DNA of 64,000 nt, from the IMG/VR virus record IMGVR_UViG_3300049460_000123, positions 1-64,000 of that record; one strand, written 5' to 3'. The translations under genes were made by a program, and so were the position numbers. Shown piece after piece: positions 1,966 to 62,871 of the stretch. The stretch is from a virus. Below the pieces are notes generated by a model. It worked only from the letters and a program-made list of their open reading frames with translations. It ran no database searches and was not told where the DNA came from. Position 1 is the first letter of the stretch, and every line of letters begins with the position of its first letter.

Positions 1966-1996
1966 TTGCTCATAAAAGAGTAACCATTGTCACGAC
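1966..1996 (-). promoter_or_regulatory. GTCGTGAC motif overlapped by an 18-bp operator
   Basis: On the minus strand GTCGTGAC (1996-1989) is followed by 15 nt and ATG 1973, which opens a short out-of-frame ORF; the CDS start at 1954 lies 19 nt further. The palindrome TTGCTCATAAAAGAGTAA (1966-1983) covers the predicted transcription start, so here the two regulatory systems overlap. This is the one copy whose -10-like box (TGGTTA) does not fit xAxxxT. From here to about 2220 I see no gene or further signal. Confidence 0.55.
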
Positions 1997-2222
1997 TTTT
2001 CATTCCTCAGTCAAGTCCGCAAGGGGGTAAGTTGCAAACAATACCAATTACTCACCACGAGGACATTTGTACCGAGACGGGCACTATGCCAGGAAGAACT
2101 ACCCTCCAATCCAAAGAATAGGCACCTCAGCAAGCGTCAATTCATCGAACTGCCCGCTCAGCCATACTGGATAGGGATCCCGTCTGGGTACTTACATCAT
2201 GTAATTGCGTTGAAAACGAATA

Positions 2223-2614
2223 GTTACCATTTAGTGCCCTAGTTACCATCCAGATACCATGCGTGGTATCCGTTGAAAACCACGCCCATCAACGGTTTCA
2301 GCCCCCTAGATACCAAGATACCTATATCTGAATAAATATATATATATAGAGGGGGGTGGGGGGTATGTGTGTCTTGTAATGTGTATGTAATGTGTGAGGG
2401 GTGTATGTATATATATATATTCCCGGAAAAAATGGTATCTGCGGTATCTTGGTAACTTCCCTTTAAAATCAATGACTTGCAAGATACCGTCAGTTACCAA
2501 TGGTATCGGCTACTCCGCACGGATACCAGTCAGATACCACCAAGATACCACGCTTGGTATCGGCTAGATCGTTGATTACAAAGAGAAAAGCAGACGCAGA
2601 TACCAAGATACCAA
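2223..2614. repeat. GATACC/GGTATC repeat cluster with AT-rich and G-rich core (copy 1)
   Basis: A noncoding stretch with about 14 copies of GATACC or its complement GGTATC, several paired as inverted repeats (for example GATACCATGCGTGGTATC at 2253-2270). GTTACC variants are interspersed. Between the repeat groups is an alternating TA tract (about 2325-2350), two G6 runs (about 2351-2363) and a second TA tract near 2407-2420. Multiple short iterons next to an easily melted AT tract are the hallmark of replication origins and partition sites. A second copy with the same order lies at 54930-55180. Open frames here are low-complexity and not credible genes. Confidence 0.75.
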
Positions 2615-2682
2615 GAATCCCGCGTAGGGACACGCATGCGCGAGAATGTCCTAAATAGTGACAGACCGGGATCGATTGGTAC

Positions 2683-2753
2683 TAACTCAAAAAAGATTAT
2701 GCGCCACGGCGAATAACTGATAGACTCCGTCTCACTTGCTCATTTCTGAGTAA
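2683..2753 (+). promoter_or_regulatory. two 18-bp operator-like palindromes before the first rightward early gene
   Basis: TAACTCAAAAAAGATTAT at 2683-2700 and TTGCTCATTTCTGAGTAA at 2736-2753. The second ends 16 bp before ATG 2770, just ahead of the GGGAG ribosome-binding sequence, a position that would block transcription or initiation if bound. Confidence 0.6.
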
Positions 2754-2769
2754 TTCACGGGAGTCTGAC

Positions 2770-3147
2770 ATGACCGAAAACCAGGTAGTGGCCCGCTTCG
2801 AAGTGGTTGGCGTGAATGACGAGCGCGACACATGCGAGTGCTGCGGCCGCAAAAACCTGAAGCGGGTTGTGTGGATTCGCGACACGGAGACCGACGAGGT
2901 GAAGCACTTCGGCACCGTATGCGCGACGGCGCCCGCGAAAGGGTTTGACCTGGTCGTCGAGATCAAGGCCGCGATCGCCAAATTCGACAGCCTGAACAAG
3001 ATGCGTGTCTACCTGGCCGCAGCTCAATACCGCCGCGAAGGCGGGAAGTACGTACCGAACGGCCCGGGATCCTGGACCGCCGCAGACCGCCCGCATCTCG
3101 ATCGCTGCATCGCCGAATGGGCAAACCGCTCCGACTTCAACTATTGA
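2770..3147 (+). CDS. early protein with CxxC zinc-binding motif
   Basis: A 125-residue protein with CECCGRKNLKR near residue 18 and a second cysteine near residue 51 in HFGTVCA, resembling the small treble-clef proteins common in proteobacterial phages and plasmids. The C-terminal half is helical and basic. ATG 2770 has a GGGAGTC ribosome-binding sequence 6 nt upstream. It is the first gene of the rightward early block and is directly downstream of two operator palindromes. No catalytic function is evident. Confidence 0.75.
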   Translation: MTENQVVARFEVVGVNDERDTCECCGRKNLKRVVWIRDTETDEVKHFGTVCATAPAKGFDLVVEIKAAIAKFDSLNKMRVYLAAAQYRREGGKYVPNGPGSWTAADRPHLDRCIAEWANRSDFNY

Positions 3148-3158
3148 GCGCCCATCCA

Positions 3159-3338
3159 ATGACCGCCCTCCGCCTGCAGCAACAGATCGCCCGCGCCCTG
3201 CTCGCCCGTGGCGTTTCTGGCGAGCTCATCCCCGTGCGCGCCGGCGAACTGCTCCTGGTTGTGGCGGACGTCACCCAGCTAGAGAAGGCGCACGCCGCGA
3301 TCGCCGCTTACCCCGAAGTCACCCTTATCACTGCCTGA
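3159..3338 (+). CDS. small hypothetical protein
   Basis: A 59-residue protein from ATG 3159. The chain shows a beta-alpha-beta pattern (helix near residues 4-15, strands near 20-33) and no cysteines. Its TGA overlaps the ATG of the next gene (TGATG). An upstream in-frame extension would overlap the previous gene and is not needed. No family recognised. Confidence 0.55.
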   Translation: MTALRLQQQIARALLARGVSGELIPVRAGELLLVVADVTQLEKAHAAIAAYPEVTLITA

Positions 3339-3631: not shown

Positions 3632-3652
3632 TCCACCACCAGGAGCACCGCA

Positions 3653-3745
3653 ATGTTTTCTACCGCAATTACCATCGGCCTCATCATCGGCACGTGTTTC
3701 GGAGCCGTCATCTCCGCCCTCCTCCGCGCCGGCGCCGGCAAGTGA
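3653..3745 (+). CDS. 30-residue single-span membrane peptide
   Basis: ATG 3653 with an AGGAG ribosome-binding sequence 7 nt upstream opens a 30-codon frame ending at TGA 3745. The product is almost entirely a hydrophobic helix (TAITIGLIIGTCFGAVISALL) with a short basic C-terminus. Short membrane peptides of this kind occur in phage early regions, where some alter the host membrane or exclude other phages. The role here is not known. Confidence 0.5.
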   Translation: MFSTAITIGLIIGTCFGAVISALLRAGAGK

Positions 3746-3775
3746 GCGTGTGCGCGATCGGCACCACCGCTCACT

Positions 3776-3793
3776 AACCTCATTTTCGAGTAG
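3776..3793. promoter_or_regulatory. 18-bp operator-like palindrome (weaker match)
   Basis: AACCTCATTTTCGAGTAG fits the 7-4-7 dyad with several mismatches and lies 54 bp upstream of the secreted-protein gene. A possible -10 box, TAGCAT (3791-3796), overlaps its right end. Confidence 0.45.
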
Positions 3794-3846
3794 CATTTGA
3801 CCCGACCCGCCACCGCGCGGGCGATAACCAATTCTCGAGAACAACC

Positions 3847-4434
3847 ATGAAAAAGACCGCCCTTATCCTCGTCGCCGCACTCATCGCCGCCCTGCCACTG
3901 TCCGCCAGCGCCGGCTACTACTACGACCCGCACCCGACGGAGACGCCCGACGGCGTGCTGTCGCCACAAGCGATGCAGCAAGCCCCCTCGATCAGAGCGA
4001 AGATCATCGCGCAGTACGGCGGAGCGGCAAAGCCCGTCTACACCGCACCGGCGAGCTCCGCCGACATCGCGGCAGCAGAAGCAGCGCAACGCGCGCACCA
4101 GGACGAGGAAGCGGCCGCGCCGCTCCGCACGCAATCCCTGCAGGATGCAATGGCCGAACGCGCGGCCGCCGCCGAGCACCGCCTCGACGGCTCGAAGCAG
4201 CAGATCCGCTATTGCGTCGCCCGGATCAACCAGGCCCGCGATGCGCTCAAGCGTGAGGACGAGATCGAGCGCGAGTCAGGCGTGCAGAATCTCAGGCTTC
4301 GCTATGACGCCGGCTCGCAAATTGCCTACTGCAATGGACAGATCGACGTCGCATTCCGCGAGTACCGCCAGCTCGGAGGCACCGCCCCGACCCGCGCCGC
4401 GCTCATAAAGCAACTGATTGCCGAGGCACAATGA
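3847..4434 (+). CDS. secreted or periplasmic protein with signal peptide
   Basis: A 195-residue protein starting MKKTALILVAALIAALPLSASA, a classic Sec signal peptide with a probable cleavage after ASA (residue 22). The mature part begins with GYYYDP and is alanine-rich and helical, with two cysteines near residues 121 and 157 that could form a disulfide in the periplasm. An exported protein in an early operon is unusual and suggests an envelope role such as superinfection exclusion or lysogenic conversion, but no family is recognised. It overlaps the next gene by ATGA. Confidence 0.75.
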   Translation: MKKTALILVAALIAALPLSASAGYYYDPHPTETPDGVLSPQAMQQAPSIRAKIIAQYGGAAKPVYTAPASSADIAAAEAAQRAHQDEEAAAPLRTQSLQDAMAERAAAAEHRLDGSKQQIRYCVARINQARDALKREDEIERESGVQNLRLRYDAGSQIAYCNGQIDVAFREYRQLGGTAPTRAALIKQLIAEAQ

Positions 4435-5502: not shown

Positions 5503-5521
5503 CCCCGCCCCGCCCCATCCA

Positions 5522-5546: not shown

Positions 5547-5558
5547 ACGCCCCGCGAC

Positions 5559-9335: not shown

Positions 9336-9377
9336 GTCGTGACTACAGCATAGCCCGTGTACAACACACAGGCTATG
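9336..9377 (+). promoter_or_regulatory. GTCGTGAC promoter motif followed by a stem-loop
   Basis: GTCGTGAC (9336-9343) follows the TGA of the HTH gene directly, then TA and CAGCAT as the -10-like box. Just downstream CATAGCCCGTGT (9349-9360) can pair with ACACAGGCTATG (9366-9377) with one mismatch and a 5-nt loop. The hairpin ends 2 nt before ATG 9380, so it could mask the start codon of the phosphoesterase message. This is the only plus-strand copy of the octamer I found. Confidence 0.5.
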
Positions 9378-17488: not shown

Positions 17489-17935
17489 TCAGAACGGGAC
17501 GTCGTCATCCTTTTCAGGTGCGGCAGTCCGATTCGATGCGGCTGGTGCGGGGCGTTGCTGGCGAGTGGACGAATTATTCGTGTCACGACCGCCGCCCGAA
17601 CCGTCCGGTTTTGCGCCGAGCATCTTCATCTCCGACCCCTTCACCTCAGTCACATACTTTTCGACGCCCTGATTGTCTGTGTACTTGCGAGTTTTGATCG
17701 AGCCCTCGACGTACACCAGCGATCCCTTGACGAGATACTCAGCGGCGACCTCAGCCAGCCGGCCAAAGAACGCGACGCTGTGCCAGGTAGTCTCCTCTTT
17801 CATCTCGCCAGATTCTTTGTCTTTCCACCTTTCCGACGTCGCGACCTTGATGTTAGTCACGGCATCGCCCGACGGCAGGTGACGCTTTTCAGGATCCGCG
17901 CCGAGGCGACCAATGATTTGCAGCTTGTTCAACAT
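17489..17935 (-). CDS. ssb: single-stranded DNA-binding protein
   Basis: A 148-residue [19 protein letters not shown] and [23 protein letters not shown] are standard OB-fold blocks, followed by a disordered Gly/Ser/Ala/Pro linker and the acidic tip DDDVPF that binds partner proteins. It coats single-stranded DNA at the fork. The neighbouring RadD-like helicase is a plausible partner, since bacterial RadD is known to bind the SSB tail. Confidence 0.95.
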
Positions 17936-17964: not shown

Positions 17965-19677
17965 TCAAACGAGCGCCGGTTTTTCTTCGGCGACAGGCGC
18001 CAGCGTGCGCTGCATGAATTCTTTGAACTTCGCATACTCAGCCTCAGCCGGCGAGTTGAAAACGTCGTATGCGATCTGTTCTTTCTCGACGAGATCCAGC
18101 AGCTTTTCGCGCCACTCCTTCATCTCCTTCGGCTTCATCGACTTGACTGCATGGAACGGCTTGCCGAACTCAGCAAGGACCGTCTTGCCGGACCGCGCGC
18201 GCCACGCGTCGAGACCCATCTCGAGACTGGCGATCATCGACGCCTTTTCCTCGCGTGCCTTGACGATCTTTTCGGCGCGGCCCCGCGAATACCCGAGTTT
18301 CTCGACCATCTCGTCGACGGACTGCGCGCGCCCCTGATCCTCACGATTCTTTTTGCTCAGCGCGGCCGCCATCTCCGGCGTGATCTTTCCGAGCTTGCCC
18401 TCGACCTGCTCGAGCACGCGCGGGCCGATGATCGGATACTCGAACTTGCAGACCGGGCAGACCGGCGCCGGCTCGTGCACGTGGAAGCACTTCGGGCACT
18501 GCTTGACGGGAACGGTTTCCTCCTCCTCCTTCGCCTTGCCCTTGCCCTTCTTGCGGCCGTCGAGCGTCCACTCGCGATCCTCGTTCGGCATGCCGTGCTT
18601 ACGCTTGAATTCCCCGTCGACCATGCGGCCGACGTTGCCGACGTGATCGAGTAGCCACGCCTCAGTCTTGCCATCCTCCGGACGCTCGACGCGGCCAACC
18701 TGCTGCAGGAACAGCGATTCCGACGCTGTCGGCCGGAGCATGATGCAGCACTGCAGCGCCGGCAAGTCATACCCTTCGGACACCAGATCCACCGTGCACG
18801 CGCCCTGGAGATCGCCGGACTTCAGGCGCTTGTTCACCGCCGTGCGCTCTGCATCAGTCATATGCGGCTCGCCAACGAGAAGCGCGAACCGATAGCCCGC
18901 CGCGTTGAACTCGTCGGCGACGTGCTGCGCGTGCTTGACGCTGGCACAGAACACGATCGCGCGCGCGCCCGGGCAGATCTCGGTGTAGTGCGCGACGGCC
19001 GAGCCAGTGATGTGCGGTTTGTCGACACGATCCGCGACCTCCGCCGCGTTGTATTCGCCGTCCTTGTTTTTGCCGACCCCCTGCAGATCCGGTTGATCGA
19101 ACGACGAATAGACCGTCGACGCGATCAGATTCTTGCGCTCGATCAGCTCCGGCTTGGACGGCCCGAGCACCATCGACTTGAAGACGCCGCCGGCATGCTC
19201 GCCTAGCCCCTTGCCATCGGTGCGCACCGGCGTCGCCGTGACGCCCAGCATAGGCGGACGTCCGAGCATGTTGAATGCACGCCCCCACTTGTTATCCGCG
19301 ATGACGTGATGCGCCTCATCAAAAATGACCAAGCCGAATTTCATCGGGGTTTTTTTGAGACGGATCAGGAGCGTGTCGATACTGGCGACCTGGATCAACT
19401 GCGTCGCATCCGGCGTGAAGTGCGGCGAAATCATCCCGTGCTTGATCCCAAGCGAACGCAGCGACGCGGACGCCTGCAGGAGGAGCTCCTTACGATGGAC
19501 GATGATGCAGACAGGAGTGCCGCGCGCGGCAGCGCTGGATGCGATGTAGCTGAAGGTGTATGTCTTGCCGCCGCCAGCGGGCAGCACGAAAAGGACTGGA
19601 TGCTGGCCAGCACGGAATTCCGCACGGACCTCGTCGACAGCGGACTGTTGGTAGTCCCGAAGTGCAATGCTCGTCAT
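17965..19677 (-). CDS. RadD-like superfamily-2 DNA helicase
   Basis: A 570-residue protein with LRDYQQSAV (Q-like motif), LPAGGGKTYTF (Walker A, ~res 35), FDEAHH (~res 120), VTATPVR, FLQQVGRVERP (motif VI, ~res 327) and a zinc ribbon CPKC ... CPVC (~res 402-423). This helicase-plus-zinc-ribbon layout matches RadD/YejH. Bacterial RadD works in recombinational repair with SSB, and SSB is encoded next to it here. The C-terminal 130 residues are lysine-rich and helical. Confidence 0.87.
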   Translation of the reverse strand: MTSIALRDYQQSAVDEVRAEFRAGQHPVLFVLPAGGGKTYTFSYIASSAAARGTPVCIIVHRKELLLQASASLRSLGIKHGMISPHFTPDATQLIQVASIDTLLIRLKKTPMKFGLVIFDEAHHVIADNKWGRAFNMLGRPPMLGVTATPVRTDGKGLGEHAGGVFKSMVLGPSKPELIERKNLIASTVYSSFDQPDLQGVGKNKDGEYNAAEVADRVDKPHITGSAVAHYTEICPGARAIVFCASVKHAQHVADEFNAAGYRFALLVGEPHMTDAERTAVNKRLKSGDLQGACTVDLVSEGYDLPALQCCIMLRPTASESLFLQQVGRVERPEDGKTEAWLLDHVGNVGRMVDGEFKRKHGMPNEDREWTLDGRKKGKGKAKEEEETVPVKQCPKCFHVHEPAPVCPVCKFEYPIIGPRVLEQVEGKLGKITPEMAAALSKKNREDQGRAQSVDEMVEKLGYSRGRAEKIVKAREEKASMIASLEMGLDAWRARSGKTVLAEFGKPFHAVKSMKPKEMKEWREKLLDLVEKEQIAYDVFNSPAEAEYAKFKEFMQRTLAPVAEEKPALV

Positions 19678-19748
19678 AGATATAAAAATGAAGGCACAGA
19701 GATAAAAGGAAGGGTCTGCGCCCCGGTTAATGGAATTCTAATGCTGCA

Positions 19749-19756
19749 GTCACGAC
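19749..19756 (-). promoter_or_regulatory. GTCGTGAC promoter motif
   Basis: GTCGTGAC on the minus strand begins on the last base of the HTH gene's TAG stop. Its -10-like box is CAGCAT. The predicted start is about 57 nt before the RadD-like gene, so it would drive the leftward replication operon. Confidence 0.5.
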
Positions 19757-20010
19757 TATTCGTCGTTGGCTAGCTTCCGTGCGTTGCGTGCGGCCGCGAT
19801 CTCAGCCTTTCGATCCGCGATGATCTGCTCCATCTGGTCGACGAGCTGGATTGTCTTCGGCACTTCGCCCTTACGCCAACGGTCCGGCGTGGCGCGCGAT
19901 ATGCCGCCGATCTCACAGATCGAAGTGAAGTTGAGCCCCACCTTTCGCGCGTCTTCTTCAATCTTTGCGACGCGTTCCCGGAAAACCTCACCAAAAGACT
20001 TGCTAGACAT
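19756..20010 (-). CDS. small HTH regulator, candidate repressor of the operator network
   Basis: An 84-residue protein. Residues ~28-58 (NFTSICEIGGISRATPDRWRKGEVPK) form a Cro/XRE-like helix-turn-helix and the C-terminus is a charged helix. Its own promoter (TTACGC, 17 nt, TACAAT, minus strand 20068-20040) contains one of the 18-bp palindromes, and the divergent recombination operon starts with two more. It is therefore the best candidate in the window for the protein that reads these operators. It lacks the peptidase domain of LexA/CI-type repressors, so induction would need another route. Confidence 0.65.
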   Translation of the reverse strand: MSSKSFGEVFRERVAKIEEDARKVGLNFTSICEIGGISRATPDRWRKGEVPKTIQLVDQMEQIIADRKAEIAAARNARKLANDE

Positions 20011-25105: not shown

Positions 25106-25333
25106 ATGTCAGTAGAAGATTTGGCGCAGGTTGTTGAGGCGCAAGAGTGGGCTCGAAATAACCGTGTGCGGCCGCCAGCGCCAGTCTATGCACCGGGCGA
25201 CGAGAAGTACGGCCCGGCGGAGTGTGAGGAGTGTGAGATCGAGCTCCCGGAGCTTCGCCGCGCAATGGGCCGATGCATGTGCGTCGACTGCACCGATCGA
25301 GATGCACTCCGCAAAAAGATACGAGGCGCCTAA
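25106..25333 (+). CDS. DksA/TraR-type zinc-finger protein
   Basis: A 75-residue protein with CEECEIELPELRRA ... CMCVDC (CxxC-x17-CxxC), the DksA/TraR C4 zinc finger. TraR-type proteins bind RNA polymerase through the secondary channel and change promoter choice, so this could favour phage promoters. The GAGGGTAAGGG ribosome-binding region precedes ATG 25106, and a terminator follows. Confidence 0.82.
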   Translation: MSVEDLAQVVEAQEWARNNRVRPPAPVYAPGDEKYGPAECEECEIELPELRRAMGRCMCVDCTDRDALRKKIRGA

Positions 25334-26246: not shown

Positions 26247-26906
26247 TCACACTCCCAAGGTTTTTTGAGCCCGCGCATAAGCCGCGAGGCGATCGGCTTG
26301 GCCGATAGGCGTCGCCGGCGAATTCGGATTGCCCAGGTTGATCGCCTTGCTGATAGCCGTGATCTGGCCGGCATCGGCGAACTTGTTCAGGTGATTCACG
26401 GACCAGAACCACGCGGCCGACAGCGCACCCGCCTGCGGTTGCTCGAGCAGCTCCGGATGCGAGACCAGGTCCATGCCGATCGCGGCCGCACATGCCGCGT
26501 AATTGGCGCGCCCCGTGATCTGTATCGGGCCGCGCCCACGGAACGCCCAGCCGTCGCCGCTCGACTCCGGACCGTTTCCGTTTCGGTCCGCGTAGCAGTT
26601 GTTCGCGATCGCCTGCGGATTGCGATTCAGGCGCAGCGCCAGCGCGTTCGGAGCGCCGCCGCGCTTGCCAGTTACCGAGTAACGATCCCAGGTGTTGGCG
26701 AGACCCTGCGCGCCGTAGTTCAGATTTTCAACGTGAGCATTCAGGCCGGCGCTTTCGACGCCAATCTCAGCGAGGAACGCAGCGACGCGCAGAGGCGTAT
26801 TGATCTCGAAGCGATCGCAAGCAGCTTGCAGCGGGACGAGCCAGAGCGCTGCATTCGACGCGGACGCGCCGCATACTACCTGGATGAGAGGAGCAGTCAG
26901 GTTCAT
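26247..26906 (-). CDS. GH19 (chitinase-like) endolysin
   Basis: A 219-residue protein: RVAAFLAEIGVESAGLNAHVENLNYGAQGL, followed by YADRNGNGPESSGDGWAFRGRGPIQITGRANYA. The first Glu of IGVESAG and the GRGPIQITGRANY block are diagnostic of the GH19/lysozyme-like fold used by many phage endolysins. It cleaves peptidoglycan glycan strands. There is no signal peptide, so release depends on a holin. Confidence 0.92.
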   Translation of the reverse strand: MNLTAPLIQVVCGASASNAALWLVPLQAACDRFEINTPLRVAAFLAEIGVESAGLNAHVENLNYGAQGLANTWDRYSVTGKRGGAPNALALRLNRNPQAIANNCYADRNGNGPESSGDGWAFRGRGPIQITGRANYAACAAAIGMDLVSHPELLEQPQAGALSAAWFWSVNHLNKFADAGQITAISKAINLGNPNSPATPIGQADRLAAYARAQKTLGV

Positions 26907-27271
26907 GGCTTATCGGCCTTCCCATCAAGACGGCGATGCAGACTATCGAGCTTGTTAGAGAAGTCACGATTCATATCGCGGATGCCTTCCGTGAGACTTT
27001 TGATCGCCTGATTCAGCCCTTCAATCGCCTGCGTGAGCGCGCCTTGAGTCACGTAGTGCTCAGCCACGTAGAGCTTGTAGTCCGAGAGCTCGCGCGAGAT
27101 TGCATCGCTTTTCTGGTCTGCATCTTTAGCCGCCTTCTCCGCCGCCCTATTGCCCTCATCCGCTTTCTTGCGAACATCGAGATACAAGAACCAGAGCACT
27201 GTGCCTATACCTGCCAATAGCAGCCCGCACGCCGTCACTGCTACCGTCGTCCAATCCATTTCCTTCCCCAT
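26903..27271 (-). CDS. membrane-anchored coiled-coil protein in the lysis cassette
   Basis: A 122-residue protein with one transmembrane helix (VAVTACGLLLAGIGTVLWFLYL, ~res 10-31), then a charged coiled coil. It overlaps the endolysin by ATGA, so it is part of the lysis cassette and may be a holin, pinholin or antiholin. ATG 27259 is an alternative start, with a GGGGAAGG just before it. Confidence 0.65.
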   Translation of the reverse strand: MGKEMDWTTVAVTACGLLLAGIGTVLWFLYLDVRKKADEGNRAAEKAAKDADQKSDAISRELSDYKLYVAEHYVTQGALTQAIEGLNQAIKSLTEGIRDMNRDFSNKLDSLHRRLDGKADKP

Positions 27272-27302
27272 TCAAAACAAGCCGTCATGAACCGATTCTC
27301 GT

Positions 27303-27310
27303 GTCACGAC
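27303..27310 (-). promoter_or_regulatory. GTCGTGAC promoter motif before the lysis cassette
   Basis: GTCGTGAC, then AC and GAGAAT as the -10-like box; 14 nt after the octamer is ATG 27288, which opens a 15-codon out-of-frame ORF running past the lysis gene start at 27271. Confidence 0.55.
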
Positions 27311-27315: not shown

Positions 27316-27579
27316 TTAATCAGCCTCGCTGCCCTCAGTCGGTTGAATGCTGTTGGTGCAGTGATTCGTGTTGAGCCAGTTCAGGACGACGCACATGAGG
27401 CGACAGCCCGCGCACTTGCCGAGCTTCACGTTTTTTCCGAAGACAGACGACAGCCGTTCGCGCGGATCGCCAAAGCGCGCCGAGGGATCGGGGCAAAGGA
27501 GGAGATTCAGGAGAGGACCGGCGACAGCGTTTGCCGCTTGGTCGAGGATGAGGAGAAGATTCCAGAAATACCGAGCCAT
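27316..27579 (-). CDS. small cysteine-containing lysis-region protein
   Basis: An 87-residue protein starting MARYFWNLLLILDQAANAV, with CAGC near residue 56, a further cysteine near 63 and HC near 74. The pattern is recognisable as a small family found in lysis or tail regions of proteobacterial phages, with the same N-terminal YxWNLLLxLDQxAN and C-terminal HCxxSI. The function of the family is not known to me. Confidence 0.7.
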   Translation of the reverse strand: MARYFWNLLLILDQAANAVAGPLLNLLLCPDPSARFGDPRERLSSVFGKNVKLGKCAGCRLMCVVLNWLNTNHCTNSIQPTEGSEAD

Positions 27580-27617
27580 TCGATCCGCCTATGCCGAGGA
27601 CATGGTCAGATGATGTC

Positions 27618-27625
27618 GTCACGAC
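27618..27625 (-). promoter_or_regulatory. GTCGTGAC promoter motif
   Basis: Octamer, GA, CATCAT box, and ATG 27603 exactly 14 nt downstream. That ATG opens a four-residue ORF (MSSA, then TAG), and the gene starts at 27579. Confidence 0.55.
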
Positions 27626-29626: not shown

Positions 29627-30079
29627 TTAGAACGAAATCGTCCACGTACCCGAGAACGTCAGGTCCGTGTCTTTGTTGAGCGGCGCCGTCCGCGTTTTCC
29701 GCGCATACAGCGCGCCACTGGCAGTAAGCAGTCCGAATTCAGAAATAGCCTTTCCGTTCGCCTCGCCAGTGCCGAGCGAGAACGCATACTGGACTTGGTT
29801 CGTCTGCGGATAGGAGTGGCCGTCTACAGCCTTGATATACGCGCTGGTGAGCACCGAGTTGCTGAACACAGGTGCAACCGCGCTCGTGCCGAACCCGATC
29901 TGCGTAACGCTCTGCCCCGTCACGTCGCCGCCGAGCAGCCTGGCGTGCGCCTGTTGCGAGCCGATTACGACCAGGTTCTTTTCTTCGAATACTTCGATGA
30001 GCTTGCCGGCGCGGCGAACTTCCAGGTAGAAGTCGCCGCGCGGCTTACGCTCAAAATCATCCCGTAGGGAAAGGTTCAT
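29627..30079 (-). CDS. tail/fibre-associated structural protein
   Basis: A 150-residue protein from ATG 30079, with GGAGG 5 nt upstream. It has FYLEVRRAGKLIEVFEEKNLVV near the start, a GFGTSAVAP loop and a C-terminal TDLTFSGTWTISF beta-segment. It lies between the baseplate gene and the fibre and probably links the two. Longer in-frame extensions overlap the upstream gene and the promoter motif. Confidence 0.65.
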   Translation of the reverse strand: MNLSLRDDFERKPRGDFYLEVRRAGKLIEVFEEKNLVVIGSQQAHARLLGGDVTGQSVTQIGFGTSAVAPVFSNSVLTSAYIKAVDGHSYPQTNQVQYAFSLGTGEANGKAISEFGLLTASGALYARKTRTAPLNKDTDLTFSGTWTISF

Positions 30080-30110
30080 CCACGCCTCCATTCTATTAAT
30101 GGAGTGTGCT

Positions 30111-30118
30111 GTCACGAC
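30111..30118 (-). promoter_or_regulatory. GTCGTGAC promoter motif before the fibre genes
   Basis: Octamer, AG, CACACT box; 14 nt downstream is ATA rather than ATG. The gene that follows (start 30079) does have a Shine-Dalgarno sequence, so a normal short leader is expected here. Confidence 0.55.
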
Positions 30119-30122
30119 CGAA

Positions 30123-34451: not shown

Positions 34452-34465
34452 TACACCATCGTAGT

Positions 34466-34473
34466 GTCACGAC
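34466..34473 (-). promoter_or_regulatory. GTCGTGAC promoter motif 14 nt before a start codon
   Basis: Octamer, AC, TACGAT box, 6 nt, ATG 34451. A start of transcription 7 nt after the box would coincide with the A of the ATG. Confidence 0.65.
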
Positions 34474-36843: not shown

Positions 36844-36857
36844 GACGACAGAATGCC

Positions 36858-36865
36858 GTCACGAC
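36858..36865 (-). promoter_or_regulatory. GTCGTGAC promoter motif 14 nt before the hub start codon
   Basis: Octamer, GG, CATTCT box, 6 nt, ATG 36843. Confidence 0.65.
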
Positions 36866-43526: not shown

Positions 43527-43540
43527 GAGAGTAGTGTGCT

Positions 43541-43548
43541 GTCACGAC
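43541..43548 (-). promoter_or_regulatory. GTCGTGAC promoter motif 14 nt before a start codon
   Basis: Octamer, AG, CACACT box, 6 nt, ATG 43526. It lies in the divergent gap opposite the reversed gene at 43595. Confidence 0.65.
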
Positions 43549-43594
43549 CACCCGCGAGACGTGACACTACACTCGAGTAAAGGAGGTGTTTCGC

Positions 43595-44449
43595 ATGGCT
43601 GAATTTCGAATCGCGGTAGATCTCTCGCAAGTGATGAACGCCGTGCCGATCATTACCCGGCAGGTTTTCCCACTGGTGAATCAGGCTGTGCGCGCGATCG
43701 CACAGCAGACGCAAGCGAACTGGATGGAGTCCGTCTACCGCGCGCACCTATGGAGTGGCGAGAAAGACGCCTATGCGAAGTCGATCGCCTGGGAAATGAC
43801 CGGCGACTTTTCCGCCGTCGTGAAGTCCGACTACAAGAACGCCGAGGAGATCGATCAGGGCCGCCCGCCGTACGACCTGAAACAGATGCTCAATACGTCG
43901 CCGAAGGTGCGGCGCACGAAGGACGGCCGGCGCTTCATGATCATTCCGTTTCGGCAGAACACCACCGGACAGGACGCGCTCACGCAAGGCATGCCGGAGG
44001 ACGTCTACACCGCCGCATCCGCGCTCAGCGCGAGCAAGATCGTCGCGCAGTCGAAACGCGCATCGGGGGAATTAACCTCGATCCATCCGAAATGGGGGAC
44101 GCAAGTCCTAAAGAAGCAGACGCCGTTCGCCTCGAACATCAAGACGCGCGGTCCGATGCTCGTCAACAAAAACATCTACAAGTGGGGAGGAAAGCTCGAC
44201 ACCAGCGGAATGGCGGGCCTCACCGACGCACAGAAGAAGCGCTATAACGGCATGGTGCGAATGACAGGCACCACGCCCGGAGGCGGGCGCTACAGTCAAT
44301 TCATGACGTTCCGCGTAATGATGGAAGGCAGCGCCGGCTGGATAATTCCGGCGCGCCCCGGCTTGAACCTGGCCCGCAACGTCGCCGCGAAGATTCAACC
44401 GCTCGCCGAGCGCGTGATCAACGAGGCGGTCGCACAGTCGTTCAAGTAG
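43595..44449 (+). CDS. virion structural protein (HK97 gp10-like position), reversed
   Basis: A 284-residue protein from ATG 43595, with AGGAGG 8 nt upstream. Features are MNAVPIITRQVFPLVNQAVRAIAQQTQANW (helix), then basic loops and GWIIPARPGLNLARNVAAK, consistent with a minor tail or head-completion protein. It is the only structural gene read rightward; its 3' end overlaps the converging connector gene by 8 bp. The function must need its own promoter, which I could not identify with confidence in the 46-bp divergent gap. Confidence 0.7.
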   Translation: MAEFRIAVDLSQVMNAVPIITRQVFPLVNQAVRAIAQQTQANWMESVYRAHLWSGEKDAYAKSIAWEMTGDFSAVVKSDYKNAEEIDQGRPPYDLKQMLNTSPKVRRTKDGRRFMIIPFRQNTTGQDALTQGMPEDVYTAASALSASKIVAQSKRASGELTSIHPKWGTQVLKKQTPFASNIKTRGPMLVNKNIYKWGGKLDTSGMAGLTDAQKKRYNGMVRMTGTTPGGGRYSQFMTFRVMMEGSAGWIIPARPGLNLARNVAAKIQPLAERVINEAVAQSFK

Positions 44450-49924: not shown

Positions 49925-49939
49925 GAGATAAATTCTCGT

Positions 49940-49983
49940 GTCACGACTTCAACCCACCGCATCACTTGATCGAAAAAAAGCAA
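49940..49983 (-). promoter_or_regulatory. GTCGTGAC promoter motif 15 nt before the protease start; weak operator upstream
   Basis: Octamer 49947-49940, AC, GAGAAT box, 7 nt, ATG 49924. TTGATCGAAAAAAAGCAA (49966-49983) upstream is a poor match to the operator dyad and may be chance. Confidence 0.6.
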
Positions 49984-54895: not shown

Positions 54896-54904
54896 AATTT
54901 TCTG

Positions 54905-54912
54905 GTCACGAC
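54905..54912 (-). promoter_or_regulatory. GTCGTGAC promoter motif before the giant helicase gene
   Basis: Octamer, CA, GAAAAT box, 7 nt, ATG 54889; ATG 54895 lies 6 nt earlier in the same frame. Confidence 0.6.
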
Positions 54913-58200: not shown

Positions 58201-60241
58201 GCACATACTCGACGCCGTGCTCCGTCTTCGTATCGCCGTCTTTCGGCCCTTGCTCGACCGGCGCGGCCACAGCCTCCGCCGGTTTCGTTACCACCAGCAA
58301 GCGCGCGTTGGCGCCGGTTTGTGACGGCAGATCCGAACCCTTGAACGTGTTTTCCGGCAGCTTCTCGACGTCGGCGCCGTGCTCATCGAGCCACGAACGG
58401 AACGCCGTCGCGCGCTGATCGGATCCGAAGAAAACACCCTCGCCGGCGATCGCGACCAGCTTGCCGCCCGGCTTGAGCATGTCGTATGCGCGCATGATAT
58501 GCGCCGCGTCCTTGCGATCGGAGAACGGCGGATTCATGATCACCGCGTCGTACTGCTTGCCCGGCTCGAACGTGTCGAAGTCGTGCGCCGCGATGTTGTG
58601 CCCCTTCGCGCTCAGCACATTGCGCAGCGTGTCGGATATCTCGATCGCGTCGACCGTTGCGCCCGCATCGCGCGCCGCGTCCGCGAGGTGCCCATTGCCG
58701 GCTGACGGCTCGAGCACAGACATACCCGGCTTGACGCCCGCCATCTCCGCCATCTTGGCCGCGAGCGGCTTCGGAGTCGGGAAGAAATCGATGCCGACCT
58801 TTTTGCCGACCAGCGCGCGTTCAGCCGCCTTGATCGGATCCTCTTTTTTCACGCCGTCACGGAACACCAGGTATTCGGCGAGCGCGAGGCGCAACTCGTG
58901 ATCATTCGTGATACCGATGCGCGCCAGGCGGTCGACCTTCTTGATCTGCTCGTCATTCCACCAGCCGAGACCCGATCGAATGTCTTTCTCATCAAGGTAT
59001 TTTTTAAGATCTTTGACCATCGCGCCATCCGGGCCGCTCGACGCGCGCAGGCGTTCGATCAGCGGCTTGGCCCCGCGCTTGCCCTGCAGCTTCTCGATCA
59101 GACGCGGCTTGTCGGCGCCACCAGTGCCCCACGACGGCCGGTAGATTTTCGCGTTGCGGATATCGTCCGGCGTCGGCGCGCGGCCCTTGGCTCGTTGCTG
59201 ATCGACATAGGACAGGTCACGATCCGTCGCATACATTGCATTGCGCACGGACTCATCAAGCGATTCGACAGCCGCGCGCGTGCTGATGCCCTTCAGATGC
59301 TTCGCCTCGCCCGCCTCGATCGCGTCCGCAAGATTGATCATCGTGCCGGCGATCGCGAGCCGCTTGCTTGCATCCGCCTCCGCCCCGGCCGCCATGCGTG
59401 CACGGCGCGCGGTATTGGCGAGGCGATCGCGGCCGAGATTCTCGTTAGCCTGATCTGCCAACTTCGCACCAGCCGCGCGCAGCTTGGCCGCCTGCTCTTT
59501 CGACTTGTCGACGACGGGCGCCGGCGCCACTTCATCAGTCTTCTCAGCCGGCTTGGTGAACATGACGCGCGGAGCGGCCGCCGGCGTGGCGCCGTCGAGA
59601 TGCTTCTCGCGAATGAACCAGCCGCCGTCCTTTTTGAACGTGTACGCGTCGATCGCCTTCGCCTGGTCGTGCGTCAGATCCGTGCGCACGACGCCGCGCA
59701 GGACTTTGCCCTTGCCGGTCGTGTGCTCGACGATATCGTGCGCGGACGGAGCCGGCTTTTCCTCCGCCACCTGCGTCTCCGCCTCGACCGGCTCTTTCTC
59801 TGCCGGCGCGGCCGCTTCCTTCGCAGCTTCGATTACCGGCTCCGCTTCTTTCGCCGGCATGGGTTCCGGTTCTGGCGTGCGCAGATCGCCGACATGCATG
59901 CCCAGCCGCTCGACGACGGACGCCGCTGTAATGTCATCGATATGCGCCATCGCGTCGATCAGCTTCGCGCGCTGCTCCGGCCGCATCTCCATCAGCGTCG
60001 AGCGCATGCGTGCCGGGCCGCCGTGCTTGGCGAGGAACTTGTCCAGCTTGGGAGACTGCTTAGCGGCCTTTGGCGCTTCAGGAGCGGGGCCGAACAAGTG
60101 CCCCTGCTCGTGAGGCTTCATCGCAACGTGCGCAGTGCGCATGTGCGGTTTGACGTACGTGCCGTCCTTCCGGTACGAGCCGGCGACGTGCACCGGCATA
60201 CCGAACAGCGGGAGCTGCGACTTGCGAAGAATGAAGATCAT
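55259..60241 (-). CDS. giant polyvalent protein: DNA methyltransferase plus HExxH-type LPD1 domain
   Basis: A protein of 1660 residues. Domains in order: N-terminal segment with an Ala/Glu-rich linker (~res 1-170); conserved blocks to ~460; an N6-type methyltransferase with FFPTPKPLAAKM, VLEPSAGNGHL (SAM site, ~res 513) and VIMNPPFSD (catalytic NPPF, ~res 568); long helical linkers; and a C-terminal domain with NGRLAMAFGARG and SLAHEWFHALDN (HExxH-like, ~res 1415), which matches the large polyvalent protein domain LPD1. Such proteins enter the cell with phage DNA and act against restriction. It is paired with the helicase-type protein downstream; P1 DarB carries both functions in one chain. 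Confidence 0.85.
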   Translation of the reverse strand: MIFILRKSQLPLFGMPVHVAGSYRKDGTYVKPHMRTAHVAMKPHEQGHLFGPAPEAPKAAKQSPKLDKFLAKHGGPARMRSTLMEMRPEQRAKLIDAMAHIDDITAASVVERLGMHVGDLRTPEPEPMPAKEAEPVIEAAKEAAAPAEKEPVEAETQVAEEKPAPSAHDIVEHTTGKGKVLRGVVRTDLTHDQAKAIDAYTFKKDGGWFIREKHLDGATPAAAPRVMFTKPAEKTDEVAPAPVVDKSKEQAAKLRAAGAKLADQANENLGRDRLANTARRARMAAGAEADASKRLAIAGTMINLADAIEAGEAKHLKGISTRAAVESLDESVRNAMYATDRDLSYVDQQRAKGRAPTPDDIRNAKIYRPSWGTGGADKPRLIEKLQGKRGAKPLIERLRASSGPDGAMVKDLKKYLDEKDIRSGLGWWNDEQIKKVDRLARIGITNDHELRLALAEYLVFRDGVKKEDPIKAAERALVGKKVGIDFFPTPKPLAAKMAEMAGVKPGMSVLEPSAGNGHLADAARDAGATVDAIEISDTLRNVLSAKGHNIAAHDFDTFEPGKQYDAVIMNPPFSDRKDAAHIMRAYDMLKPGGKLVAIAGEGVFFGSDQRATAFRSWLDEHGADVEKLPENTFKGSDLPSQTGANARLLVVTKPAEAVAAPVEQGPKDGDTKTEHGVEYVLRDGRWHRANEEDDNSRNAFTVQRVIDDKLSPVKFERGESVKVAGTFPMRAGKIDGISHDKREAKVDGVWYDFGYIYKQAYDEYAAPRADIEKGIATLEERLDAGNGIDASRLLEDIEKQVNHFKLMQYASAVDRLRQKIVEVDRQFQDRLTADRMRKQAQAADDARRAADEAAKAPKKVIRMTMDEWKKVHRDYKGNYPDGRVVMHGGQMVPVEIVKDPAKSSHGNPVDVAPAPAAEATQANPDVELAEDREDLADELARDPHSEKAKDLVSKIAERVAAREEPVEVDRPSSENYRYADTGHIGGSRKERAALEVITRAKKEGARVFATAIDWDALEQNPREAKSLITKSNLFGTVDWDALRAGGMEPGAGFLVDRIYAAIGQEPSADNPSARQDYAIGLQSLRDRLEGCKTPAEVTGVLDNLREEFEGAILTAEESEQYQVHGNASLALANESREIDAGNTALYNEMQKTRVELYRAREAVENRKRRGWAPKPELDEKLADLEKVDAAATKLWGDTLQGNKPRRDEIDDARSELGRKREVLKLMAKVRNQTENPLHRAWNLMGDRFVGVIKYRSYKGSDAFANHVAAAKVGKIGWDWMEKEQKRAPRISKESARFQLKVADSFERVGGRSVVPDSTMALKDMFGLRDVQSGNWVLRDVASAKFHTEHTAGAFADLADLMGADDAHVSLNGRLAMAFGARGNGAAGGGAAKAHYEPIQRVINLTKMGGGGSLAHEWFHALDNMAKEAEGMGAAGQDDFITENPHLLPPGELRDATIALRSAMLDGTHQHTELISYTASDVKMAQRNLNGTYPNAVARSIRDAGTVHDAFKAIDAVYPDDKTLTKKRKSTREIWRLIAAAHFGGNPEGGAVEVKQGKGMSSFAFEASKLDTGSKEYWQLTHEMAARAFQSWVEDRLSDKGRRNDYLSSLADNRFHVDPLTGVQWKPYPEGDERVKINAAFDRFVAAVKKADTLAKALELV

Positions 60242-60271
60242 GGGGAGCCTATAAGGAGCATCCCCATATGA

Positions 60272-61051
60272 TCAAGTCACGACCAAAGCCTTATAGAATA
60301 GGACGCGCAGCGATTTGATCATCGCCGGCTTTTCCTTAGTAGCCCGAGCTTTTTTTATGAATTCCGCGACCGGCATTGCAACGATGCCACCGAAGAATCG
60401 CGGATCGTCGTAATGCGCGAGGTATGCCTTTTTTGCCGCTTCCATCGAGGCAAATCCGAGGAAACACTTGTCCTCGTCGTACTTGCTCCAATCCTTTCGC
60501 GTCATCTGGCGAACGATGTAGACCTCCGGCGCCGACTCGTCCGGACCCATGTAGACGTCGACCGGATCCCCATCGACGCCCTCAGTGCCGGCGATCTCGC
60601 CATAGGCGTACTCGAACACGGTCCGCCACTTCGCGCCGGTCTCGTCGACGCCCTCGCGTACGGTTCCCGCCGGATTCTCGATATTGATGTCGAGCCCGTT
60701 CCACTTCATGCGCAGTTTTTTGTAGTTGCCGGCCGCCGCCTGCGCGGGAGTCGGTTTTTTCCAGCCGTCAGCGCGCTCAGACTTGACCATCCATAAATCG
60801 CCGTCCTGGCGTGCAGTGCCGCGCAGATCATCCCATGAGAACGACTGCTGGCTGTCGGCAAACTGCACCGTGATATAGGCACCGTCGACCGTCGCCTTGA
60901 CGTTCGATATCTTGCCCGTCGCCGGACCTTTGTCCGTATGGCGATCGCTCTCGAATTCGATCCGTTGGCCGATATCGGGCCATCCATCCGGCGCACGCCG
61001 TTTTCGCAGCGCCTCGAGGCGCTTCGCGTAATCAGCTTTAATCAGCAGCAT
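60272..61051 (-). CDS. head-associated protein with inorganic-pyrophosphatase-like domain
   Basis: A 259-residue protein from ATG 61051, overlapping the MuF-like gene by 14 bp. After an N-terminal beta-barrel-like part (GQRIEFESDRHTDKG) comes NIENPAGTVRE ... FEYAYGEIAGTEGVDGDPVDVYMGPDE, matching the pyrophosphatase core (E...Y.Y..I...DGDPVDV) of the InPase domain found in phage head-gene neighbourhoods. The DGDPVDV metal-binding Asp residues are intact, so it may hydrolyse pyrophosphate or another phosphoanhydride. It may be injected like other polyvalent domains. Confidence 0.78.
   Translation of the reverse strand: MLLIKADYAKRLEALRKRRAPDGWPDIGQRIEFESDRHTDKGPATGKISNVKATVDGAYITVQFADSQQSFSWDDLRGTARQDGDLWMVKSERADGWKKPTPAQAAAGNYKKLRMKWNGLDINIENPAGTVREGVDETGAKWRTVFEYAYGEIAGTEGVDGDPVDVYMGPDESAPEVYIVRQMTRKDWSKYDEDKCFLGFASMEAAKKAYLAHYDDPRFFGGIVAMPVAEFIKKARATKEKPAMIKSLRVLFYKALVVT
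60276..60283 (-). promoter_or_regulatory. GTCGTGAC promoter motif before the giant methyltransferase gene
   Basis: The octamer forms part of the last codons of the upstream gene (VVT, stop). TT and GATCAT follow; ATG 60261 is 14 nt downstream and opens a 7-codon ORF (MLLIGSP) whose TGA overlaps the ATG at 60241. Confidence 0.6.
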
Positions 61052-62198
61052 TCGAATTTCCCAGTACGCTACGTAGGTAATCGCCGAACGCCTTGTCATC
61101 GCCCGGCTCGTCTTGAATGGTCGGAACCCATCGGCCCCGGCAATGCGGATGCTGCGCGCCGGCGGCAATCCAGTACATCTCCTCCGGCTCGCGATGCACG
61201 AGGATGGTCCCGACGCGCTTACGCGGCGCATTGGATCGCCCCATGTTCGTTTTGCCCGGCCAAATCTGCGTCATGCCGTCCTTGTCAGGCGCATCCGGCG
61301 AGACAACCTCGACGATCGTGCCATCGATCTTTCGGCACCACGAACACGCATTGCGGTATTGCTCGACGCGCCTCAGCTTGGATCCGACTGGCATGCTCGA
61401 GACATAGCCCTGATTCTGGTTCTCAGTCGTCTCCGTCTCAGCGATGCGCCGCCAGTCGCGATTGAGCGTCGCAAACTCGTCGTGCAACGTCGTTTGTAAC
61501 GAGTGGCGCGGGCCGGGCGTGCCGAGGAACGTCTGTCCCGTGTGCTCGAGCACCACCTGGCGCATGCGATGCCGCGCGTTATCGGCGAGGCGCTGGACGT
61601 TCTCCACGCCGCGCACGCGTGCATAGTCGAGAATGATCGACTGCACCGGCGACATGGTGAACGCCGCGCGCGCCGCGCTCACGGTCGACGGCAGCGCCTC
61701 GAGCAGCGTATCAGCCTGCTTGGCCGTCAGGCTTTCCATGTTCGCCTGCACGCGCCCCATGAACGTCGAGCGCACGGCGAGCCATTCCGCTTCGGTGCGC
61801 ATGTCACTGGCGGGCAAATAGCGTTGCGCCAGGTAGTCGACGACCATCATCCAGTCGTCGAGCGTGAATTCCGCCGGCGGAAGCGATTCGAGGTAGAGCT
61901 TGACGAGCGACAGCTCGGACGCCGACCAGCGCTGCATGTACCCATCCGGCCGCGCCACGCGCGAGCCTGCGTGATGCTTCTCGCCGGCGAGCCACTGCTC
62001 GAGCTCCTTGCGGAACCCGTCGAGGCGCATCAGTCCGCGACGCGTGAACAACTCCACTAGGCGGCGCACGAACGGATTTTCGTGCTCCGACCAGATCGAA
62101 TCGTCATCGTCATGGCTGTGGATCGCCTTGTAGATGGTGTTTAGGGCGCGGTCTGACTGTTGCTCCGTCAATTCGCCGATATCGAGTAGTAGGGTCAT
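61038..62198 (-). CDS. MuF-like phage head morphogenesis protein
   Basis: A 386-residue protein. The C-terminal domain has RNACSWCRKIDGTIVEV (CxxC) and HPHCRGRWVPTIQDE, the Mu gpF/SPP1 gp7 signature with conserved Cys/His. It is a minor head protein beside the portal and may travel with the DNA. A weak CAGGA is the only ribosome-binding signal; GTCGTGAC lies 14 nt before ATG 62198. Confidence 0.9.
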   Translation of the reverse strand: MTLLLDIGELTEQQSDRALNTIYKAIHSHDDDDSIWSEHENPFVRRLVELFTRRGLMRLDGFRKELEQWLAGEKHHAGSRVARPDGYMQRWSASELSLVKLYLESLPPAEFTLDDWMMVVDYLAQRYLPASDMRTEAEWLAVRSTFMGRVQANMESLTAKQADTLLEALPSTVSAARAAFTMSPVQSIILDYARVRGVENVQRLADNARHRMRQVVLEHTGQTFLGTPGPRHSLQTTLHDEFATLNRDWRRIAETETTENQNQGYVSSMPVGSKLRRVEQYRNACSWCRKIDGTIVEVVSPDAPDKDGMTQIWPGKTNMGRSNAPRKRVGTILVHREPEEMYWIAAGAQHPHCRGRWVPTIQDEPGDDKAFGDYLRSVLGNSNAAD

Positions 62199-62212
62199 TT
62201 CATCATCCTGCC

Positions 62213-62254
62213 GTCACGACAAAATCACGCACAGACTTACTCATTTTTGATACA
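62213..62254. promoter_or_regulatory. GTCGTGAC motif (leftward) and an 18-bp operator (rightward gene)
   Basis: Leftward: octamer 62220-62213, GG, CAGGAT box, 6 nt, ATG 62198. Rightward: TTACTCATTTTTGATACA (62237-62254), with a possible -10 TACACT at 62251-62256, in front of the gene at 62291. The same 18 bases occur at the HTH gene promoter (20042-20059, opposite strand). Confidence 0.6.
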
Positions 62255-62290
62255 CTCCGCTTTCTCGAAATTTCTCAAATACCGACGGTC

Positions 62291-62746
62291 ATGCAGAAAA
62301 CGCCAGTGCCCCGCGCGAAGAAAGTCACGAACGCCATGCAGCTAGCCGGAGCCCGTCCGGCATTGCGCGCGATCGAATCAATCATGGCGACATGGAATAG
62401 CCCGAGCGGCCCGGAGGCGGATCCGCAGGACATCGTCGGTCTGCAAGGGTTCTTTCTCGGATATGATCGAGTGTGCAAAAACTCCGGCGTGCCGTTTGAC
62501 GCGTCGATCGCCGACGAGATCCTCGATCGGATGCACCATGACAAGCCCGTATCGCGCGCCGACATTCACACGCTGCACGTCGAGGCGCACAAGCTACTGC
62601 GCGCCGCTCGATCGGTACGCAGCATCGACATCTGGCTTGAAAGCCTGCAGGACATGGAGATCTACTGTCACGTGCACGGCTGGCAATGGAAGGGAATCGG
62701 GAGAGCTCCGGCAGGTTTCTCCGCCGGAGTGCAGATCGCCGCGTAG
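62291..62746 (+). CDS. hypothetical protein, reversed in the head-gene block
   Basis: A 151-residue basic, helical protein (RAIESIMATWNSPSGPEADPQDIVGLQGF; SRADIHTLHVEAHKLLRAARSVRSIDIWL). It runs against the late operon and is preceded by a repressor-type operator. It may therefore be expressed in the lysogen or early, like a moron. I do not recognise the family. The 118 bp that follow hold no gene. Confidence 0.6.
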   Translation: MQKTPVPRAKKVTNAMQLAGARPALRAIESIMATWNSPSGPEADPQDIVGLQGFFLGYDRVCKNSGVPFDASIADEILDRMHHDKPVSRADIHTLHVEAHKLLRAARSVRSIDIWLESLQDMEIYCHVHGWQWKGIGRAPAGFSAGVQIAA

Positions 62747-62863
62747 CGTGCGGATACGGTCAGATCATCGCGGGAGATACGCTCACTCTGACTGCGGGTC
62801 GTTTTAGGCCGACGGTCCCGCGCACGGCGTCGCCCTCTCGCCAAGGAACACTTTCAGTATGCA

Positions 62864-62871
62864 ATCACGAC
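62864..62871 (-). promoter_or_regulatory. GTCGTGAT, one-mismatch copy of the promoter motif
   Basis: It overlaps the stop codon of the leftward gene (TCG TGA). TG and CATACT follow. No gene starts close downstream on this strand; the MuF-like gene is 670 bp away. It may be a relic that predates insertion of the reversed gene at 62291. Confidence 0.35.

Follow-up and report, generated by a model that had tools for sequence, protein, structure and literature searches.

A putative octamer-and-hexamer promoter class with leaderless late transcripts in a family of ~90 kb phages

Octamer sites along the window

The window analysed here comprises the first 64,000 nucleotides of a 93.5-kb virus record (IMGVR_UViG_3300049460_000123). 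Along it recurs an octamer, GTCGTGAC, that is usually followed after two nucleotides by a hexamer of the form xAxxxT, resembling the -10 element of bacterial promoters. The sites are given below as octamer, spacer and hexamer, read as putative promoters and together with the gene that follows each; 'leaderless' is predicted from the spacing to the ATG.

1989..1996, minus strand: GTCGTGAC, hexamer TGGTTA in place of a canonical xAxxxT; upstream of the gene for a 174-aa candidate regulator, start 1954
9336..9351, plus strand: GTCGTGAC-TA-CAGCAT; leader, then in-frame start 9380 of a conserved gene, a metallophosphoesterase homologue
19741..19756, minus strand: GTCGTGAC-TG-CAGCAT; upstream of helicase gene 17965-19677
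27295..27310, minus strand: GTCGTGAC-AC-GAGAAT; 15-codon ORF from an ATG at 6 nt, overlapping gene 26903-27271
27610..27625, minus strand: GTCGTGAC-GA-CATCAT; 4-codon ORF from an ATG at 6 nt, ahead of gene 27316-27579
30103..30118, minus strand: GTCGTGAC-AG-CACACT; leader with Shine-Dalgarno (SD) sequence, conserved gene frame 29627-30091
34458..34473, minus strand: GTCGTGAC-AC-TACGAT; leaderless, ATG 34451, virion structural/baseplate protein
36850..36865, minus strand: GTCGTGAC-GG-CATTCT; leaderless, ATG 36843, tail protein
43533..43548, minus strand: GTCGTGAC-AG-CACACT; leaderless, ATG 43526, conserved gene, head-to-tail adaptor by relatives' annotation
49932..49947, minus strand: GTCGTGAC-AC-GAGAAT; leaderless, ATG 49924, head maturation protease; footprint kept in 67 of 68 loci
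54897..54912, minus strand: GTCGTGAC-CA-GAAAAT; leaderless, ATG 54889, 1516-aa helicase homologue
60268..60283, minus strand: GTCGTGAC-TT-GATCAT; 7-codon ORF from an ATG at 6 nt, before a 1660-aa gene
62205..62220, minus strand: GTCGTGAC-GG-CAGGAT; leaderless, ATG 62198, conserved 386-aa gene
62856..62871, minus strand: variant GTCGTGAT-TG-CATACT

The octamer has 14 exact copies in the window, where shuffled sequences lead one to expect 3.7 +/- 2.0 and none of 100 shuffles reaches 14; combined with the hexamer, as GTCGTGAYNNNANNNT (GTCGTGAY-N2-xAxxxT), the window total is 13 against an expectation of 0.22. Across the whole record there are 17 matches to GTCGTGACNNNANNNT and none to its reversed-pattern control, and the Y version (GTCGTGAY with the -10) has 20 matches. 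The first-pass annotation had listed 14 sites, 13 of which are exact copies; the one at 62864 is a one-mismatch octamer, GTCGTGAT, and an exact copy at 17582 (minus strand) had been missed. This copy lies within the gene for an ssDNA-binding protein and lacks the T of the -10, so the further claim, that octamers lie at gene boundaries and never inside genes, is not strictly true of the octamer. It stands for full sites: a scan of the record placed none of the 20 inside a conserved gene, after correction of one mis-annotated start, whereas 8 of 10 octamers without a -10 are intragenic (Fisher p = 8e-6). The only gene overlap of the 30111 site is with an over-long ORF call, 29627-30229, which begins too far upstream of the conserved frame 29627-30091. 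As had been reported, A at position 2 and T at position 6 are found after 13 of the 14 listed sites, with 1989 (TGGTTA) the sole exception. Specificity resides in the octamer together with xAxxxT; the octamer alone is unspecific. The one-mismatch octamers, which are no more frequent than chance, might suggest that the sites cluster by accident or reflect the composition of a GC-rich genome, but this reading is refuted by the shuffles, the reversed-pattern controls and the recurrence of the motif in fHe-Yen8-01, a relative with 47% GC, and its probability is negligible.

Start-codon spacing and transcription from the motif

The hexamer stands 6 nt before the ATG at 34451, 36843, 43526 and 62198, and 7 nt before it at 49924 and 54889, which verifies the leaderless spacing proposed for these six genes; outside the window, the starts at 65215 (portal) and 82641 have the same spacing. 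At 27303, 27618 and 60276 the ATG in leaderless position opens an ORF of only 4-15 codons, before or overlapping the real gene; at 60276 this ORF has 7 codons, and its TGA shares an ATGA with the start codon of the 1660-aa gene (60241). Over 133 sites the distance to the ATG is bimodal, with 60 at 6-7 nt (about 45% of promoters), almost none at 8-14 nt and a broad class from 15 nt; most of the others have an ORF start some 16-70 nt downstream. ATGs in leaderless position open an ORF of at least 50 aa in 52 of 60 cases, compared with 44% of random ATGs. An SD sequence accompanies 4 of these 60 sites; among the non-leaderless sites followed by an ORF, it accompanies 28 of 68. A leaderless start is a property of part of the promoter class and not of all of it. 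Across the 133 sites, no information is present in the 35 nt that precede the octamer, and there is no conservation at -35. The capsid, sheath and tube genes had been described as having good SD sequences and no motif; the motif is indeed absent from all three, and the SD is strong at the tube gene but only moderate at sheath and capsid.

The motif is almost certainly a promoter, one that would drive the late genes and some early genes of this phage lineage. Host RNA polymerase with its housekeeping sigma factor would read xAxxxT as a -10, with A at -11 and T at -7, while a phage-encoded factor on GTCGTGAY, at about -22 to -15, would substitute for the missing -35 contact; the need for such a phage-encoded activator is very likely. 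Transcription would start about 7 nt past the hexamer, and therefore an ATG at 6-7 nt would give a leaderless or nearly leaderless mRNA, translated from its 5' AUG; the remaining genes would have a leader, in part with an SD sequence. The sequence features expected of leaderless mRNAs, a -10 that places +1 on the A of the ATG and no SD, are found here. The TG at -15/-14 of an extended -10 is not: position -15 is C or T, -14 is variable, and the TG of the octamer falls at -18/-17.

Two other accounts of the element can be weighed against this one. The motif could be read by a phage-encoded RNA polymerase or an alternative sigma factor, since a compact signal near the start site with no -35 consensus is also seen in phage polymerase promoters. 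Sigma70 region 2, however, requires A-11 and T-7, the very bases conserved here, and no Sigma70_r2 domain was detected in the record by a search that did detect its positive controls. Among conserved ORFs of 400 codons or more, most have homologues in relatives, many with assigned roles, and an unassigned 809-codon frame is oxidoreductase-like by eye; a search of the record for a T7-type RNA polymerase gave no match, but neither did its controls. We consider a phage polymerase or sigma factor improbable. Still less probable is an element acting on RNA, or on DNA as something other than a promoter (a translation-initiation, packaging, partition or recombination site). Constant spacing to many ATGs and a near palindrome would suit such an element, but the xAxxxT register is kept in all 67 head-protease footprints found, leadered genes share the element with ATGs at scattered distances and in part with SDs, the strand bias of the motif tracks the direction of late transcription, and pac or partition sites would not be expected in many copies at gene starts.

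Conservation and the candidate activator pair

The motif is present in five of six cultured relatives, whose hosts are Bordetella, Pseudomonas, Yersinia and Aeromonas; the Morganella phage Mecenats66 has A4 and A5 (described below) and only degenerate versions, with no exact full motif. It occurs in 45 of 50 environmental records, with about 400 matches against one for the reversed-pattern control, mostly on a single strand within each record. Among distinct head-protease upstream regions, 67 of 68 have the octamer with A and T in register, and in 60 of these 67 an ATG follows the hexamer at 6-7 nt. In seven bacterial genomes with prophages of this kind, the leaderless pattern is almost confined to the prophage contigs. 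The late genes of a widespread ~90 kb phage family of Gram-negative hosts appear, from sequence comparison, to share one promoter signal, GTCGTGAC or GTCGTGAT with a -10. The proposal of a promoter class that is specific to the phage and gives leaderless late transcripts draws support from head-protease conservation, bimodal ATG offsets, the absence of SDs in the leaderless group and the near-confinement to prophage contigs. Among published open-access papers, a search on the octamer, on leaderless late promoters and on the relatives turned up no prior description.

The strongest candidates for a factor reading the octamer are encoded by two adjacent genes, and two other proteins are rivals for this role:

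1430..1954, minus strand: A4, candidate activator, Cys-rich, 174 aa; conserved in every relative compared
1146..1436, minus strand: A5, candidate co-activator, 96-aa Cys-rich (zinc-ribbon-like) protein; beside A4 in 49 of 50 loci
19756-20010: 84-aa helix-turn-helix (HTH)-like protein, conserved
25106-25333: DksA/TraR-like protein

We lean towards the Cys-rich pair A4 and A5 as this factor, with A4 probably its DNA-binding part; overall, a promoter class read by host sigma70 RNA polymerase and a phage factor, likely A4/A5, is the best explanation and a probable one. Homologues of A4 also occur in elements without A5 or the protease, which are unrelated bacterial chromosomal islands, some adjoining defence genes such as Avs2; one A4-only island is in Noviherbaspirillum. 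In the elements L176, L177 and L178 a full motif immediately precedes the A4 homologue, and in L173 and L175 the homologue follows a short first gene. Across genomes, the pair and the leaderless motif go together in 7 of 7 against 2 of 16, a comparison confounded with phage lineage because the whole phage is also present in each of the seven positive genomes. Autoregulation of A4 as a general rule in large phages was rejected, because most lack an octamer upstream of A4 (present in 3 of 50 loci).

No Pfam family scores above its cut-off for A4, and AlphaFold models of A4 and A5 gave no significant match in a fold search against the PDB, which therefore offers no functional hint; by Pfam and fold search neither protein matches a known transcription factor family. 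Homology to P1 Lpa was rejected (hhalign probability <1% for both), and tblastn with Lpa in seven genomes found nothing better than E = 0.26. Also discarded were A5 as FlhC (a single member at 18 bits against a Pfam cut-off of 27), the pair as Ogr/Delta (no Pfam match) and a cytochrome c7 reading, attributed to Cys-pattern noise. The conserved opposite-strand 287-aa gene (43586-44449) was set aside as a regulator; it is more likely structural, because it has a PHROG of unknown function and is found within the tail block in each of the seven relatives.

The same promoters might instead be read by another phage protein, such as the HTH-like or DksA/TraR-like one, with A4/A5 otherwise employed. 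The near palindrome GTCrtGAC would suit an HTH protein that binds as a dimer; members of the 84-aa family occur in PHB04, Pseudomonas phage Dolphis, fHe-Yen8-01, ST4 and Touem01, and the DksA-like family has a PHROG match. Yet the HTH-like family is undetected in 5 of 24 near-complete records, each with 9-18 motifs, and is for this reason retained only as a rival; no homologue of the DksA-like gene was detected in fHe-Yen8-01, although the motif is present there. A4 is linked to the motif outside the phage as well. A different reader is an unlikely, if not negligible, alternative to A4/A5. More tentatively, A4/A5 may form a new activator family that makes host sigma70 holoenzyme use GTCGTGAY promoters, with the unrelated islands, carrying their own A4 behind the same promoter, sensing or hijacking phage late transcription during infection.

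If this reading of the motif is correct, a single readable signal would allow late promoters and the correct starts of genes to be predicted throughout a large phage family, most of it uncultured, whose hosts are Beta-, Gamma- and Alphaproteobacteria. For some genes the wrong start appears to have been deposited, owing to the lack of a ribosome-binding site at the true one. The general view is that Proteobacteria translate leaderless mRNAs poorly, and leaderless late transcription, systematic at such a scale, would be unexpected there. The candidate pair is small and unlike any family searched, and A4 in islands with defence genes would connect late-gene control to satellite or defence biology.

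Comparison with known promoter systems

Leaderless promoters of Mycobacterium, Deinococcus and Thermus phages depend on the -10 alone or on an extended -10, and likewise have a -10 about 7 nt before the ATG and no SD; the promoters described here have a conserved octamer in addition, in phages whose known hosts are Proteobacteria. Ogr/Delta of P2/P4 are also small Cys-rich phage activators of late genes, and the satellite-borne P4 Delta is reminiscent of the A4-only elements, but the Ogr site lies near -55, and neither A4 nor A5 has an Ogr/Delta Pfam match. T4 middle promoters (MotA/AsiA sigma appropriation) likewise retain the sigma70 -10 and have a phage activator box in place of the -35 contact; the centre of the MotA box, however, is near -30, as against the predicted -22 to -15 of the octamer, and A4/A5 match no such Pfam family.

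The architecture also invites comparison with the late promoters of P1, which depend on Lpa and host SspA. P1 is likewise a ~90-kb myovirus, and its promoters lack a -35 and have a short, nearly palindromic box just ahead of a sigma70-like -10, an arrangement found here too, with A and T in register and nothing conserved upstream of the octamer. The P1 box, AAGTGACTT-N4-TAnAAT (NC_005856 annotation), has GTGAC in common with the octamer. It is nevertheless a different palindrome: the P1 -22 box, AAGTGACTT with N4 and a -10, is replaced here by GTCGTGAY with N2 and a -10, and GTGAC stands 4 nt closer to the -10. No relative of Lpa was found in the record or its relatives, and many starts here are leaderless. 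As judged from sequence, the promoter architecture resembles that of P1 Lpa/SspA, while the box, its spacing and the putative activator differ.

Specificity of the motif and predicted leaderless starts

Against an expectation of 3.7, the window contains 14 copies of the octamer GTCGTGAC. The first-pass annotation arrived at the same number, having missed the copy at 17582 and counted one GTCGTGAT (62864); its statement that no octamer lies inside a gene fails at the missed copy, which is intragenic. One-mismatch octamers overall are not enriched, and the signal is therefore specific. When the octamer is combined with the proposed −10 hexamer (GTCGTGAYNNNANNNT), 13 matches are found in the window against 0.22 expected, with never more than one in shuffled sequences, and the extended form, in which an ATG follows the motif after six nucleotides, occurs 7 times versus 0 in shuffles. 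Across the whole 93,508-nt virus record, the full motif ending its octamer in C has 17 matches and its reversed-pattern control 0; allowing C or T at that base (Y-form) gives 20. None of these 20 sites lies inside a conserved gene, an over-long ORF call at 30111 being discounted, versus 8 of 10 octamers lacking a −10 hexamer (Fisher p = 8e-6). The octamer with its −10 hexamer therefore withstands the refutation first suggested for it, namely that octamers might be just as frequent within genes.

Start-codon positions were examined for a set of 133 distinct full sites. At 55 of them the first ATG comes 6–7 nt after the hexamer, and when any ATG is counted the number is 60 (45%). This spacing places the predicted mRNA start at the start codon; ATGs at 8–14 nt are almost never seen and the remainder are mostly at least 15 nt away. 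ORFs of at least 50 aa open from 52 of the 60 leaderless-position ATGs, compared with 44% of random ATGs, and a Shine–Dalgarno-like stretch precedes only 4 of the 60, versus 28 of the 68 remaining sites that have an ORF downstream. Environmental contigs supplied 68 distinct sequences upstream of the head maturation protease gene. Of these, 67 carry the octamer and the in-register A and T of the hexamer; the protease ATG falls 6 or 7 nt past the hexamer in 60 of the 67. ATG spacing, open frames and scarcity of Shine–Dalgarno sequences make the predicted leaderless transcription, as originally proposed, well supported at the sequence level.

Several short-ORF exceptions are leaderless ORFs of 7–9 codons that end within the start codon of the main gene (an ATGA or GTGA overlap), at the 60276 site of the window and in L073 and L068; they probably serve translational coupling from a leaderless start.

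60241–60283: short leaderless ORF overlapping the main gene start
70060–70172 (minus strand) of Aeromonas phage ST4 (OR261032): portal start, probably deposited 30 codons too late

The deposited ST4 start at 70060 is 30 codons inside the frame opened by a leaderless ATG, and homology extends upstream of it; the late placement is attributed to a leaderless start without a Shine–Dalgarno sequence. Similar annotation errors are likely in other relatives.

Spread of the motif and a candidate activator

The capsid protein relates this virus to Bordetella phage PHB04 (79%), Aeromonas ST4, Pseudomonas Jeremy and Dolphis, Yersinia fHe-Yen8-01 and Enterobacter phiT5282EW and, more remotely, to Pseudomonas Touem01 and Morganella Mecenats66. 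Six cultured relatives and phage P1 were compared. In PHB04, Dolphis, fHe-Yen8-01, ST4 and Touem01 the motif recurs, with many of its copies at homologous gene starts and C or T as the last octamer base; Mecenats66 has degenerate versions only. Composition does not explain the motif, since fHe-Yen8-01 has a GC content of 47%.

The six relatives also share the position and orientation of a 287-aa gene of unknown function (43586–44449, plus strand), which lies on the opposite strand within the late tail block. An 809-codon open frame at record positions 82784–85210 (minus strand; L009/L010) resembles an FAD-dependent oxidoreductase by eye, and no homologue was found in the compared phages.

Two adjoining genes are candidates for the activator and co-activator.

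1430–1954 (minus strand): A4, 174-aa Cys-rich protein
1146–1436 (minus strand): A5, 96-aa Cys-rich protein

Both are present in all six relatives, P1 has neither, and they adjoin in 49 of 50 loci. Among the genes conserved in the six, these two look like regulators and have no recognised role in replication or structure. Their AlphaFold models are confident (pLDDT 86 for A4, 93 for A5) and have no fold match in the PDB. A4/A5 are a candidate new activator family. The octamer might instead be read by an 84-aa HTH-like protein, but this is undetected in 5 of 24 near-complete records; A4 and A5 stay the preferred candidates.

Full motifs occur in 45 of 50 environmental records encoding A4, the other five being short fragments of 4–30 kb; the 50 hold about 400 full motifs, mostly on one strand per record, versus 1 reversed-pattern control. 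In bacterial genomes the leaderless form is found almost exclusively on prophage contigs. This is a genuine promoter class, both old and widely distributed.

A4 homologues also lie, around 9.5–10.6 kb, in bacterial loci with neither A5 nor the head protease (L163, L173, L175–L178, L182), in Paraburkholderia, Burkholderia, Noviherbaspirillum, Methylobacterium, Caballeronia and a proteobacterial MAG. A full motif stands immediately before A4 in three of the loci (L176, L177, L178); in L173 and L175 it precedes a small first gene that lies upstream of A4. Finding five or more of these arrangements among 18 loci has a probability of about 1e-5 even at the enriched local rate, for a 500-nt window picked after the hits were known. 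These islands offer independent, correlative support for A4 as the putative activator. L178 has an Avs2-like defence gene as well as an integrase gene next to the A4 homologue, L176 has a methyltransferase and a ZacB-like helicase, and L158 has an integrase and an IetA-like gene; the L158 element may be a satellite of the phage family studied here.

3637–4053 and 7131–11646 of L158: element in Cupriavidus that encodes an integrase, A4 and a 933-aa protein, with an A5-like ORF at a distance of about 6 kb

Proposed promoter mechanism and comparison with P1

No information content is found upstream of the octamer at the 133 full sites, and hence there is no −35 element. A−11 and T−7 are the bases captured by sigma70 region 2, and a search for a phage sigma domain found none. 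The octamer would occupy −22 to −15, a position that would put a bound activator within reach of sigma or the beta flap. The late promoters of P1, which depend on Lpa and SspA, have a similar activator-box layout with the sequence AAGTGACTT-N4-TAnAAT, but no relative of their activator Lpa was detected here. The motif promoters probably function like P1-type activator-box promoters, although, judged on the features tested, they are not members of the P1-type family.
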